This document shows, one piece after another, positions 58,951-64,000 of a stretch of DNA of 64,000 nt. Positions within the stretch are counted from its first letter, which is position 1. Each line of letters starts with the position of its first letter. The DNA comes from Hyalangium gracile (GTDB lineage Bacteria; Myxococcota; Myxococcia; Myxococcales; Myxococcaceae): NCBI RefSeq assembly GCF_020103725.1, contig NZ_JAHXBG010000024.1, positions 62,001-126,000 on the forward strand, given 5' to 3'. The notes beneath the pieces were generated by a model. That model ran no database searches, was not told the origin of the DNA, and saw only the letters and a list, made by a program, of their open reading frames with translations. A program made the position numbers and the translations under genes.

Positions 58951-59102
58951 GGTTCCTTCCACCTTACCCGGCCTGCCGGCAGGGCGCAGAGCGAGCCACC
59001 GGGCTGATAGTCTCAGGCTATCAGATGGATTGAAACGATGTCATGGCGACTATCTCAGCCCGGGCGCATCCTTCTCGAGGTTTCGAAGGAAGGAGCTTGG
59101 GT

Positions 59103-59693
59103 ATGAGTATCGCCGTGCTGGCTGCCATGGGTTCGGGTGCGCTCCACGCGCTCTCCGGTCCGGATCACCTGCTCAGCCTGGCGCCTCTCTCGGTGGGGCG
59201 GCGTCATGGCGCCTGGCGTGTGGGGCTGGTCTGGGGGCTGGGGCACGGTCTCGGCACGCTCGCGGCGGCGGCGGTGCTCATGCTGGCGCTGTCCGCCGTG
59301 CCCCTGGAGGGGATCGATCGCTGGGCCGAGCGTGTGGCTGGGTTCGCCCTCCTGGTCATGGGCGCCTGGGGAGTGAGGCGGCGGGCGATCGCCGCGTCGA
59401 CGGAGACGGTGTCTCGGGGAGTGCTCGCGGTAGGGCTCGTCCATGGGATGACGGGTGCCGCGGCGCTGCTGCTCCTCCTGCCTGCCGTCGTCTCCGGCAC
59501 GGCCGCCTATCGCGCCCTGTATCTCGGAGGCTTCGCGGTGGGCAGCACCCTGGCCATGGCGGCGCTCACCTCGGCCATCGCCGCCGTGTCCCGGGCTCGC
59601 CGGGTGCCCGCGGCCTTCGGGACGTACGTGCCCCGGGCGGCCTCGGCGCTGTCGGTCGTGCTGGGCGGCGCGTGGGTGGTCGGGAGCATCTGA
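59103..59693 (+). CDS. NicO/UreH-like membrane transporter
   Basis: A 196-residue integral membrane protein starting MSIAVLAAMGSGALHALSG, with AAGGAG upstream. The HALSGPDHLL motif resembles the His/Asp signature of nickel/cobalt transporters (NicO, UreH-like). Six or so hydrophobic segments follow (VGLVWGLGHGLGTLAAAAVL, LLLLLPAVVSG). A role in metal efflux or uptake is inferred and not certain; no metalloenzyme genes lie nearby. Confidence 0.72.
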   Translation: MSIAVLAAMGSGALHALSGPDHLLSLAPLSVGRRHGAWRVGLVWGLGHGLGTLAAAAVLMLALSAVPLEGIDRWAERVAGFALLVMGAWGVRRRAIAASTETVSRGVLAVGLVHGMTGAAALLLLLPAVVSGTAAYRALYLGGFAVGSTLAMAALTSAIAAVSRARRVPAAFGTYVPRAASALSVVLGGAWVVGSI

Positions 59694-59771: not shown

Positions 59772-60686
59772 ATGGATCGGCGCGTGAAGCCACTGCTGAC
59801 CGTCATCGCGGGACCGACCGCCTCGGGCAAGACCGGGCTCGCCGTGGAGCTCGCTCGCCGCGCGGGCGGAGAGATCGTGAACGCGGACTCGCAGCAGGTG
59901 TACCGCCTCTTCGACATCGGCACGGCCAAGCCCTCCGCGGAGGAGCTCGCCGCGGTGCCGCACCACCTCATCTCCGTGGTGGAGCCGCTCGAGTCGTTCT
60001 CGGCGGCGGAGTACCAGCGCCGGGCGGACGCGGCGATCGCGGACATCGCCTCTCGGGGGAAGCCGGTGTTCGTCGTGGGCGGGACGGGGCTCTACCTGCG
60101 GATCCTGCTGCACGGAGTCGTCGAGGCGCCCGGGGCGGATCCAGCGCTCCGGGCCTCGCTGGAGGCGCAGGCGGCCGCCGAGGGGCGGGAGGCCGTGCAC
60201 CGCCAGCTCGCCCAGGTGGACCCGGAGACGGCGGCGAAGCTGCCCACGCAGGACCTGGTGCGCGTCATCCGAGCGCTGGAGATCCACGCGCAGACGGGGA
60301 TTCCGGCCTCCCAGTGGCGCCGGGAGCACGGCTTCGCGCCGGACCGGTACCCGTTCCGGATGTTCGTCCTGGAGCCGCCGCGAGAGCAGCTCTACGTGAC
60401 GATCAACGCGCGCACGGAGGCGATGTTCGCCAGAGGGCTCGTGGAGGAGACGCGGGAGCTGCTCGCGCGCGGGTACGCGGAGGCCGCGCCCATGCGCAGC
60501 GTGGGCTACGTGCAGGCCCGAGCGGTCGTCGAGGGCCGGATGACGCGAGAGGAGGCCCTCCAGGATACGGCCCAGGAGACGCGCCGCTACGCCAAGCGGC
60601 AGCTCACCTGGTTCCGCAAGGAGGCCGGTGCCGTGCACCTGGCCCCACCGTATGAAGCCCTGCGAAGCCTGGCTCAGGAGGCGTAG
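59772..60686 (+). CDS. miaA: tRNA dimethylallyltransferase
   Basis: The 304-residue enzyme transfers a dimethylallyl group to A37 of tRNAs that read codons starting with U. The P-loop GPTASGKTGL, DSQQVYR, the tRNA-binding VGGTGLYLR and the late motif YAKRQLTWFRKE are all present. The first step of i6A/ms2i6A synthesis. It converges with the FAD-REC gene; the two ends overlap by 13 bases. Confidence 0.95.
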   Translation: MDRRVKPLLTVIAGPTASGKTGLAVELARRAGGEIVNADSQQVYRLFDIGTAKPSAEELAAVPHHLISVVEPLESFSAAEYQRRADAAIADIASRGKPVFVVGGTGLYLRILLHGVVEAPGADPALRASLEAQAAAEGREAVHRQLAQVDPETAAKLPTQDLVRVIRALEIHAQTGIPASQWRREHGFAPDRYPFRMFVLEPPREQLYVTINARTEAMFARGLVEETRELLARGYAEAAPMRSVGYVQARAVVEGRMTREEALQDTAQETRRYAKRQLTWFRKEAGAVHLAPPYEALRSLAQEA

Positions 60687-62407
60687 CGACCGGACTCCGC
60701 GTCCACGGGGCTCTCCGAGACTCGCGCGGGCGCGGGCGTCGAGACGACCGGAGCCTCGTGGCCCATCAGCAGCCGTAGCAGGCGAGCCGGCTCCACGGGC
60801 TTGGGCAGGAAGGCCTCGGCGCCGGCATCCAGCGCTCGCTGCCGGACATGGGGCCGGTTCAGGCCGCTCATCACGAACACGCGCGTCTGGCGCGTCAGCG
60901 GGTGCTGCTTGAGGCCCTCGCACAGCCTCAAGCCGTCCACCCAGTGCAGCACCACGTCCAGCAGGATGGCCGTGGGCGGCCGCCGTGCCACCGCGCAGAA
61001 CAGGGCCAGCTCGTCCGCGAAGGACACCACCGTGGCGCCCGTGGACTCCAGGAGCTGCGTGATGGCCTCCCGAGCATCCGGGTCGTCGTCCACGACGTAG
61101 TAGAGGTCCGGCTCCAGCTGGGGAATCGTCGTGGGGATCGGCTCCATCGCCGTGCGCAGCCACGAGCCCATCACCTCGCGCAGGCCCGCCCAGCGCGCCG
61201 AGGCCAGCAGGGCCAGTGGGGTAGGGGCAGCCAGCCCCAGCACCCCGCCGCTGTAGACGCCACCCACCGAGCCACGCTGGCGTGCCGCCAGGAACGCGGC
61301 CGGAGCCCGGCGACCCGCGCGCCGCAGCCAGGCGATGGAGCGAGCTCCCGCCGCCGCGTCCTCCATCAGCTCGGAGAGCCCCTCACGGACATACCGACGC
61401 TCGAGCTGCGAGGCCTCCAGGCCTCCATCCAGCAGCCCCACCGCGCCGCGGCTGCATGTGGCCAGCGTCTCCGAAACACCGATCTGCAGCGGGTGTCCGA
61501 GCGCCGCCGGCCCCACCGCGATCTGCCCCGGCGCCACGAGCGAGCGCCCCGGACCGAACGGCAGCCGCGTCGTCTCCAGCGCCGTCAGCTCGAAGCCTTC
61601 CTCGATGAGGCCATCGCGCGCCGCCATCATCAGGGCCTGGCACAGATCGGCGGGGGTGACCGCCGGCCCGAAGGCGATCGCGTACACGGAGTGCGCGGCG
61701 GGCAGCAGGAACAGTCCATCCACCGTCGGCAGGGGAGCGATCCACAGCCGGGCCAGCGGCGAGAGCGTGAGCCGGGAGGTGCTCTGGCGCAGCCGGGCCT
61801 GTACCGCGGCCACGGTGGGCGCCGGCCGGAACCCCGGGAAGAACGAGTCCCCGAGCGAGCTCCCCGCGCCCGCGGCCAGGGCCGCCGCGTGGAAGCGCTC
61901 GCCACTGCCCTGGGCCCGGACCACCAGCGGGCCACTGTTGCGCACCGGAGCCGGAGCATCCGGAGCCGGAGGCTGGCTCTCGACGCGGTCGACGTGGCGA
62001 TCCACGAACCGGGCGCCCTGGGCCGTCGCGGCGGTGACGAGCGCCTCGCGCACCATCGCCAGCCCGCCCCGTCCCTGGGGCCAGCCATCCACCACCCACA
62101 GGCCACCGGGAGGCGCGGGCAGCAACTCCCGCCGTCCCTGGGCCAGGAGCTCCACGCCGCGCAGCTCCAGCGAGCGCCACTCCAGCGGGACGCGGCAGCC
62201 CAGCGCGGCCAGGCGCGAGCGACACTCGGGTGTCAGGACCACGGGCGGCGTGACGCTCTCGGATTCACCGTGCGAGTACACCCGCACTTCCAGCGCGATG
62301 CCGCGAGCGCGTCCATTGAAGAGCAGGGAGGCGGCCAGTCCCGCGCCGGCAATCCCACCGCCGATCACCGCTACCCTCGAACCGCTCACCAGCCTGCTTC
62401 CGCTCAT
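60674..62407 (-). CDS. Flavoprotein fused to a C-terminal response-regulator receiver domain
   Basis: A 577-residue protein starting MSGSRLVSGSRVAVIG. The N-terminal Rossmann motif AVIGGGIAGAGLAASLL is typical of FAD-dependent monooxygenase or oxidoreductase proteins, and the first 430 residues fit that fold (GGLWVVDGWPQGRGG, VAAGQI-like and LPAAHSVYAIAF). From about residue 434 a receiver domain follows: VVDDDPDAREAI, phosphoacceptor Asp near 484 in ILLDVVLHW, VMSGLNR and FLPKPVEP. All key receiver residues are present. The fusion is unusual. It lies just before a REC-GGDEF gene on the same strand (48 nt downstream of that gene's stop). Confidence 0.82.
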   Translation of the reverse strand: MSGSRLVSGSRVAVIGGGIAGAGLAASLLFNGRARGIALEVRVYSHGESESVTPPVVLTPECRSRLAALGCRVPLEWRSLELRGVELLAQGRRELLPAPPGGLWVVDGWPQGRGGLAMVREALVTAATAQGARFVDRHVDRVESQPPAPDAPAPVRNSGPLVVRAQGSGERFHAAALAAGAGSSLGDSFFPGFRPAPTVAAVQARLRQSTSRLTLSPLARLWIAPLPTVDGLFLLPAAHSVYAIAFGPAVTPADLCQALMMAARDGLIEEGFELTALETTRLPFGPGRSLVAPGQIAVGPAALGHPLQIGVSETLATCSRGAVGLLDGGLEASQLERRYVREGLSELMEDAAAGARSIAWLRRAGRRAPAAFLAARQRGSVGGVYSGGVLGLAAPTPLALLASARWAGLREVMGSWLRTAMEPIPTTIPQLEPDLYYVVDDDPDAREAITQLLESTGATVVSFADELALFCAVARRPPTAILLDVVLHWVDGLRLCEGLKQHPLTRQTRVFVMSGLNRPHVRQRALDAGAEAFLPKPVEPARLLRLLMGHEAPVVSTPAPARVSESPVDAESGRYAS

Positions 62408-62455: not shown

Positions 62456-63421
62456 TCAGTGCCTCTGCGCCACCGCCGAAGGGGGAACGACCATCGAGTT
62501 GCCGTACACCACCACCCGATCCCGCCCCTCTCGCTTGGCCACATAGAGCGCCGCATCCGCCGCCTTCAGCAGCGCCTCCGTGTTCTCGCGTGGCGTGCCC
62601 TGGGAGTGGTCCGCGATGCCCACGCTCACGCTCAGCCCGAAGGGGGCTGGCCGTCCATCACTGCGCTGCACCGTCACATTGCGCAGCCCGGCGCGGATGC
62701 GCTCGGCGAACGCCGCCGCCTCGATGGCTGTCTGGTGCGGCAGCAGGGCGACGAACTCATCCCCGCCGAAGCGCGCCGCGAAGTCCGACTCGCGCAGGTT
62801 GCTCTTGAGGTGCGAGGCGAGCGCCAGGATCGCCCGGTTGCCCACATCGTGGCCCATCCCGTCGTTGATGGCCTTGAGGTGGTCCAGATCGATCACCACC
62901 ACCGACAGCGGATACTGGTAGCGGTTGGCGCGGCGGAACTCCTCTTCCATCCGCAGGGTGAGGGCCCGGAAGTTGGCCAGCCCGGTGAGCGCATCCGTCT
63001 GGGCCAGCACCCGGAGCCGGTGCTGGTGCTCGCTCTGCCGCAGCGCCCGGTCGATGCGCGCCAGCAGCTCTCGGGCGCTGGCCGGCTTGTGGATGAAGTC
63101 CACCGCGCCCATCTCCAGGCAGCGCTCCAGGGTGGCCTCGTCCGTGTCCCCGGTGAGGAAGATGACGGGCACGGCATCCGTGCGCACATCCTTCTGCAGG
63201 TTCTCCAGCACGGAGAGCCCATCCCCGCTGGGCAGGAACCGATCCAGGAGGATCAGATCCGGCCGGTGCTCCCGCGCCAGCTCGATGCCGGCTTCAGCAT
63301 CGGGGGCCGTCAGCACCTCGAACTTCGACACCAGCAAGTCCGAGAGGCTTTCTCGAACACCCGCATCGTCCTCGATGATGAGGACGAGGGCCCGTTCACT
63401 GCCACGGCCGCGCCGTTCCAT
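62456..63421 (-). CDS. REC-GGDEF diguanylate cyclase response regulator
   Basis: A 321-residue protein starting MERRGRGSERALVLIIEDDAG. The receiver domain (about 12-128) has IIEDD, phosphoacceptor Asp in LILLDRFLPSG, FLTGD and IHKPA. The GGDEF domain (about 145-310) has an intact RFGGDEF active site and the inhibitory I-site RESD five residues before it. It should make cyclic di-GMP under phosphorylation control. No EAL domain. Its stop lies 48 bases upstream of the FAD-REC start, so an operon is likely. Confidence 0.94.
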   Translation of the reverse strand: MERRGRGSERALVLIIEDDAGVRESLSDLLVSKFEVLTAPDAEAGIELAREHRPDLILLDRFLPSGDGLSVLENLQKDVRTDAVPVIFLTGDTDEATLERCLEMGAVDFIHKPASARELLARIDRALRQSEHQHRLRVLAQTDALTGLANFRALTLRMEEEFRRANRYQYPLSVVVIDLDHLKAINDGMGHDVGNRAILALASHLKSNLRESDFAARFGGDEFVALLPHQTAIEAAAFAERIRAGLRNVTVQRSDGRPAPFGLSVSVGIADHSQGTPRENTEALLKAADAALYVAKREGRDRVVVYGNSMVVPPSAVAQRH

Positions 63422-63818: not shown

Positions 63819-64000
63819 CTAACGTCGATTAATGAACTGCATGCGGCGTCCGCCGCCCCCGCCCATGGTGGGGGGAGGGGGAGGGGCCTCGAGGCCGAAC
63901 TGCCACCAGGTGGGCTCGTAGGGCTTCATCTTCAGCCGCTTGTCGTTCTGCAGCTGGGTGAGGCTGGCCTTGAGCTTCTCCTCGGTGGGGTTGGTCTCCA
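63819..64000 (-). CDS. Hypothetical protein, C-terminal end only
   Basis: The frame enters from the right edge and ends at TAG. It reads ETNPTEEKLKASLTQLQND, KMKPYEPTWWQFGLEAP, a Pro/Gly stretch, then MQFINRR and stop. Codon use is normal for this genome, so it is a real gene whose start lies beyond the window. I recognise no family. Confidence 0.6.
   Translation of the reverse strand, partial: ETNPTEEKLKASLTQLQNDKRLKMKPYEPTWWQFGLEAPPPPPTMGGGGGRRMQFINRR

Follow-up and report, generated by a model that had tools for sequence, protein, structure and literature searches.

The window, by which we mean the whole 64,000-nucleotide stretch of Hyalangium gracile DNA that we analysed, has near one end a minus-strand gene for a protein of two domains (Table 1). 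Its reading frame has no internal stop and encodes 577 amino acids, counted from the ATG at 62407. The gene lies directly downstream of a REC-GGDEF gene, as the initial annotation had described. Both genes are on the minus strand, and a gap of 48 bases separates them (REC-GGDEF start at 63421, stop at 62456). A convergent gene that we take to be miaA overlaps the stop of the two-domain gene by 13 bases at its 3' end. The gene adjoining miaA (59043-59693) has a weak match to HupE/UreJ_2 (E = 3.1e-4, below the cut-off). On the other side, a TPR-repeat gene lies upstream of the REC-GGDEF gene on the same strand (63822-64000 of the window, continuing to L064:7569) and is present in 15 of the 20 loci that we compared. 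Divergent from it, at L064:7614-8495, is a gene whose product also has a receiver domain (residues 79-187, then a weak cupin-like match); this gene is found in 7 of the 20 loci.

Table 1. Features of the locus, in window positions. Residue numbers are those of the 577-aa protein, and fractions are rows of the family alignment unless controls are named.
Feature	Position	Strand	Details
Flavoprotein-fold and receiver gene	60674..62407	-	577 aa; orthologous to MXAN_3734 of Myxococcus xanthus, which shares an operon with dmxB according to excerpts of PMC8844925
N-terminal domain, residues 9-418	61154..62383	-	GGR/PHBH/flavin-halogenase fold in the model, with degenerate FAD motifs; AlphaFold, Foldseek, VIA-align
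GGGIAG glycine-rich dinucleotide motif, residues 16-21, kept	62345..62362	-	G16 78/78, G18 78/78, G21 78/79
Ser45, end of beta2	62273..62275	-	E/D in only 18/80; 9/9 in same-genome control flavoproteins
Pro300, in place of the GD-motif Asp	61508..61510	-	Asp 1/79, Glu 3/79; control Asp 11/11; register via HMM alignment to ChlB4
Receiver domain, C-terminal, residues 434-550	60758..61108	-	PF00072, 71.2 bits
Asp484, predicted phosphoacceptor	60956..60958	-	78/78
dmxB ortholog, REC-GGDEF, 321 aa	62456..63421	-	D60, RESD at 210, GGDEF at 219
miaA	59772..60686	+	Convergent; named from recognition of its sequence; regular neighbour in compared loci

The upstream gene identifies the locus. Read from the ATG at 63421, its Asp60, its RESD motif (the I-site) and its GGDEF motif have the residue numbers published for DmxB (PMC4877007). 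(PMC8844925, PMC4877007, PMC7694542 and PMC8880074 are cited here and below from excerpts.) Also, dmxB of M. xanthus strain AM003 (L076) is followed by a gene whose 577-aa product is about 75% identical to the window protein. Because of these two matches, we identify the window gene as the ortholog of MXAN_3734, which comes second in the dmxB operon. DmxB is the cyclase behind the rise in c-di-GMP during fruiting. In M. xanthus, dmxB and MXAN_3734 form one operon (PMC8844925). Deleting MXAN_3734 left development normal in the conditions tested, and DmxB with the D60N substitution was functional, so that phosphorylation of its receiver is not needed (PMC4877007). The remainder of MXAN_3734, outside the receiver, was published as having "no known domains" (PMC8844925, PMC4877007). 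DmxB is also listed as core among the fruiting proteins of Myxococcaceae in PMC7694542, the excerpts of which do not mention MXAN_3734; the main text of PMC6791715 mentions neither protein. A search of 19 kb for an MrpC-like site upstream of dmxB, with one mismatch to the consensus allowed, gave no match.

The fusion of the two domains, proposed in the initial annotation, was borne out by the intact reading frame and by 28 aligned relatives from other genomes, which have 537-580 residues and the identical domain order. Other proteins with this order, which the annotation had suggested looking for, turned up across myxobacterial genomes. A frameshift, or an assembly or sequencing error that joined two separate genes, would have undone the proposal and is ruled out for all practical purposes: the same fusion recurs across the compared genomes, except for genes that are split at contig ends. 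A chance reading frame is likewise ruled out by the presence of the gene in 79 of 195 genomes and by its dN/dS ratios. In four pairwise comparisons, both domains were under purifying selection: the flavoprotein-like part had dN/dS values of 0.10-0.23, and the receiver had values of 0.06-0.12. The N-terminal domain is 73-91% identical across most of the family.

The receiver is intact. It matches Response_reg (PF00072) at residues 438-545 (440-547 if the protein is read as 579 aa), well above the cut-off of 30.2 bits (Table 1). Its active site is invariant: D441 and D442 are found in 79/79 rows, and D484, S/T514, and K536 in 78/78. The phosphoacceptor that had been placed near residue 484 is exactly residue 484 in the 577-aa numbering, and we predict from the sequence that it is phosphorylated. 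We also considered whether this receiver was recently duplicated from that of DmxB. This is unsupported: in its own genome, the DmxB receiver is just one of many at about 30% identity.

The N-terminal domain is harder to recognize. In the window protein, residues 1-430 matched no Pfam family at E values up to 1, and searching the PDB with its sequence alone gave nothing convincing. An AlphaFold model was built from 29 sequences (mean pLDDT 79.3, pTM 0.68), and Foldseek matched it to solved flavoproteins with E values down to 1.9e-15. In VIA-align, all 1000 of the 1000 chains aligned had Z of at least 8. The best match was the geranylgeranyl-reductase-like protein 3oz2 (Z = 25.9, rmsd 3.8, 357 residues aligned). 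Halogenases and PHBH-type monooxygenases came next, no more than about 4 Z units lower, and many of them were mutually tied. In the model, the superfamily (GGR/PHBH/flavin-halogenase) is clear but the subfamily is ambiguous. In addition, the family profile reaches the proteins CmlS (E = 1.3e-4) and ChlB4. Distant members of the family mostly have weak Pfam matches to FAD/NAD families, and two of these matches are above the cut-off (NAD_binding_9 in L061 and DAO in L105).

We then examined the residues that hold the cofactor. (The counts cover 79 genomes and 82 rows, the difference being due to G133, G157, and G162, whose genes are broken across contigs.) In flavoproteins, a Glu or Asp at the end of beta2 contacts the adenosine ribose, and the Asp of the GD motif is a ribityl-binding residue. 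The glycines of GxGxxG are conserved throughout the family (Table 1), and residues 16-23 of the window protein are GGGIAGAG. The acids are mostly lost. At the end of beta2, 62 of 80 rows lack Glu or Asp and mostly have Ala or Ser instead. The Asp of the DG motif, a feature of the monooxygenase subgroup, is found in 0 of 78 rows and is Ala181 in the window protein. At the place of the GD-motif Asp, in the register given by the HMM alignment to the halogenase ChlB4, Pro or Ala is dominant. As a control, we used the ordinary FAD_binding_3 (PF01494) proteins of the window's own genome, with 14 matches. All nine near-full-length matches (L107-L115) have the beta2 acid, and all eleven that span the GD region have its Asp (L117, L118, and L120 do not cover this region and were excluded).

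Other N-terminal residues are conserved instead, namely R65 (78/80), R264 (78/79), and D265 (77/79). Because of these residues and the low dN/dS, we conclude that the domain is selected rather than decaying, though in a pattern unlike that of an ordinary flavoenzyme. It seems to be a flavoprotein scaffold without the usual use of FAD. Thus, of the flavoprotein Rossmann domain in the initial annotation, the fold and the glycine motif stand, but most of the key FAD-contacting acids do not. The loss of the beta2, DG, and GD acids comes close to what the annotation had said would refute it, and the label "FAD-dependent" is not supported for the window protein (Ser45, Ala181, Pro300) or for most of the family. 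Redox chemistry in this domain is unsupported, and so is the suggested link between redox chemistry and cyclic di-GMP. In M. xanthus, DmxB functions without receiver phosphorylation, and the mutant deleted for this gene developed normally under the conditions examined (PMC4877007). A caveat is that motif loss is not proof of FAD loss: 18 of 80 rows keep the beta2 acid, the GD place has Glu in three rows and Asp in one, and Rossmann sites vary.

In the main rival reading, the protein would be a true flavoenzyme (a reductase, a monooxygenase, or halogenase-like) that is gated by its receiver and binds FAD in an altered pocket. The retained fold and GxGxxG motif, the purifying selection, and the FAD/NAD matches of the distant members would all fit such an enzyme. 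But the three acids are found in just 0/78 (DG), 1/79 (GD), and 18/80 (beta2) rows, and the window protein has no Pfam match to a flavoprotein at E values up to 1, so we consider this reading somewhat unlikely.

How the gene is distributed ties it to the cyclase. A search with the N-terminal domain profile located the gene in 79 of 195 Myxococcota genomes and in 20 of 90 genera, at one locus each apart from splits at contig ends. Of these genomes, 70 belong to the window's family (Myxococcaceae), in which at least 20 others are without the gene, and 9 to four further families of the same order. In 75 of the 79 genomes, a cyclase gene with the same orientation lies upstream, at a distance of no more than 400 bp. 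As for the exceptions, the contig of G120 begins at the flavoprotein-receiver gene, and G157, G159, and G160 (all from one family) have the gene without an adjoining cyclase gene. Among the 20 listed same-family genomes without the gene, a DmxB ortholog of at least 270 bits occurs only in G107, where dmxB is followed by miaA with no flavoprotein-receiver gene between them (L103:7496-9683).

A search of viral contigs for the gene found none, and a degenerate-pattern scan of genome contigs found 32 loci, 31 of them in records titled as myxobacteria and one in a record titled Comamonas. The apparent absence outside Myxococcota comes from this single scan and is not proof. The Comamonas record (Comamonas sp. 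KCTC 72670; L101, BNCN01000013.1, 6654-12556) has a Myxococcus-like dmxB, the flavoprotein-receiver gene, and miaA, and is probably mislabelled or contaminated.

Outside the window's family, the counterparts of DmxB can include a kinase. Three of them (L057:8869-11466, L060:4803-6740, and L062:6034-7737) have the order HisKA-HATPase-REC-GGDEF, while the cyclase of L059 has HisKA without the ATPase and that of L061 has neither. The three fused cyclases place a kinase with two receivers, which is only suggestive. The operon may have begun as a kinase-cyclase plus a second receiver, with the kinase part lost in Myxococcaceae; such a loss would fit with DmxB D60N still working in M. xanthus.

Two receivers in one operon, and the cyclases of L057, L060, and L062 with their fused hybrid kinase, would also fit a phosphate sink. 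Here one kinase would serve both receivers, which would compete for its phosphoryl groups, and the N-terminal domain would set only stability or location. We consider this quite improbable: since DmxB D60N is functional in M. xanthus (PMC4877007), diverted phosphate would matter little there, and the N-terminal domain is strongly conserved (see the identities above).

Our preferred reading, to which we give a probability of about 0.45, is that the protein is a phospho-switched regulator encoded in the dmxB operon, whose flavoprotein-fold domain serves as a module for binding a ligand or a partner without the usual use of FAD. It builds on the anatomy, the fold, the operon order, the phyletic coupling, and the conserved residues. 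In the proposed mechanism, a histidine kinase (an orphan in Myxococcaceae, fused to the cyclase in some relatives) would phosphorylate Asp484. The receiver would then alter its contact with the N-terminal domain, and this would change what that domain binds, which might be a small molecule, DmxB, or some other protein. DmxB is a candidate partner that may be contacted directly. The output would tune a c-di-GMP-linked branch of behaviour. Several observations point against this reading: the deletion had no developmental phenotype, DmxB D60N is functional, a minority of the family keeps the acid, and the gene and the cyclase are apart in some genomes.

Signals could also run the other way, with the N-terminal domain as a redox or ligand sensor that modulates the rates of phosphorylation and dephosphorylation of the receiver. 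The receiver comes last, as in sensor-receiver fusions, and the fold is able to bind dinucleotides, but the FAD motifs of a classical flavin sensor are absent and the literature that we searched had no example. We view a sensor as improbable. More speculatively, the old flavin pocket might be reused for the dinucleotide made by the cyclase (c-di-GMP or 3',3'-cGAMP). The protein would then be either a cyclic-dinucleotide receptor with a new class of fold, gated by phosphorylation, or a phospho-switched protein that controls DmxB directly. Retention of the glycine motif despite the loss of the FAD acids would make sense on this idea, as would the coupling of the gene to the cyclase gene, yet we regard it as a long shot.

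If the preferred pseudo-flavoprotein reading is true, this would be a response regulator with a type of output domain that is absent from the literature searched. We found no receiver-flavoprotein fusions in the open-licence literature of PubMed Central (subscription papers were outside this scope), and PMC8880074 is, in its excerpts, unrelated to such fusions. Within that literature, the locus tag and the deletion of MXAN_3734 were already known, and the gene is named only in PMC8844925 and PMC4877007. What our analysis adds to the excerpts of these two papers is a fold, the loss of FAD residues, the invariance of the receiver, and the partner cyclases with a fused kinase in relatives, all of which make an uncharacterised gene directly testable. 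DmxB makes the rise in c-di-GMP that M. xanthus needs for fruiting, and its operon partner had neither a full domain assignment nor an assigned role.

The closest known system is MXAN_3734, the ortholog of the window protein: it has 577 residues and a C-terminal receiver and is encoded directly downstream of dmxB. The difference is in the remainder, published as having no known domains outside the receiver (PMC8844925 and PMC4877007, in excerpts) and here assigned, in the window ortholog, to a flavoprotein fold with degenerate FAD motifs. Proteins that are GGR-like, PHBH, and halogenases (3oz2, 5buk, 7fco, and 1ykj) resemble the window protein in fold (Z of 22-26) and in GxGxxG. However, it shares only 12-16% identity with them, is missing the beta2, DG, and GD acids, and has an extra receiver at its C terminus. 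Receiver cyclases of the PleD/WspR and DmxB types also carry a receiver, and one adjoins the family gene in 75 of the 79 genomes, whereas the family protein is without GGDEF. Finally, Rab GDI and Rab escort protein may offer a precedent. These are eukaryotic proteins without a receiver, in which the fold of a flavoprotein monooxygenase acts as a regulator without FAD.
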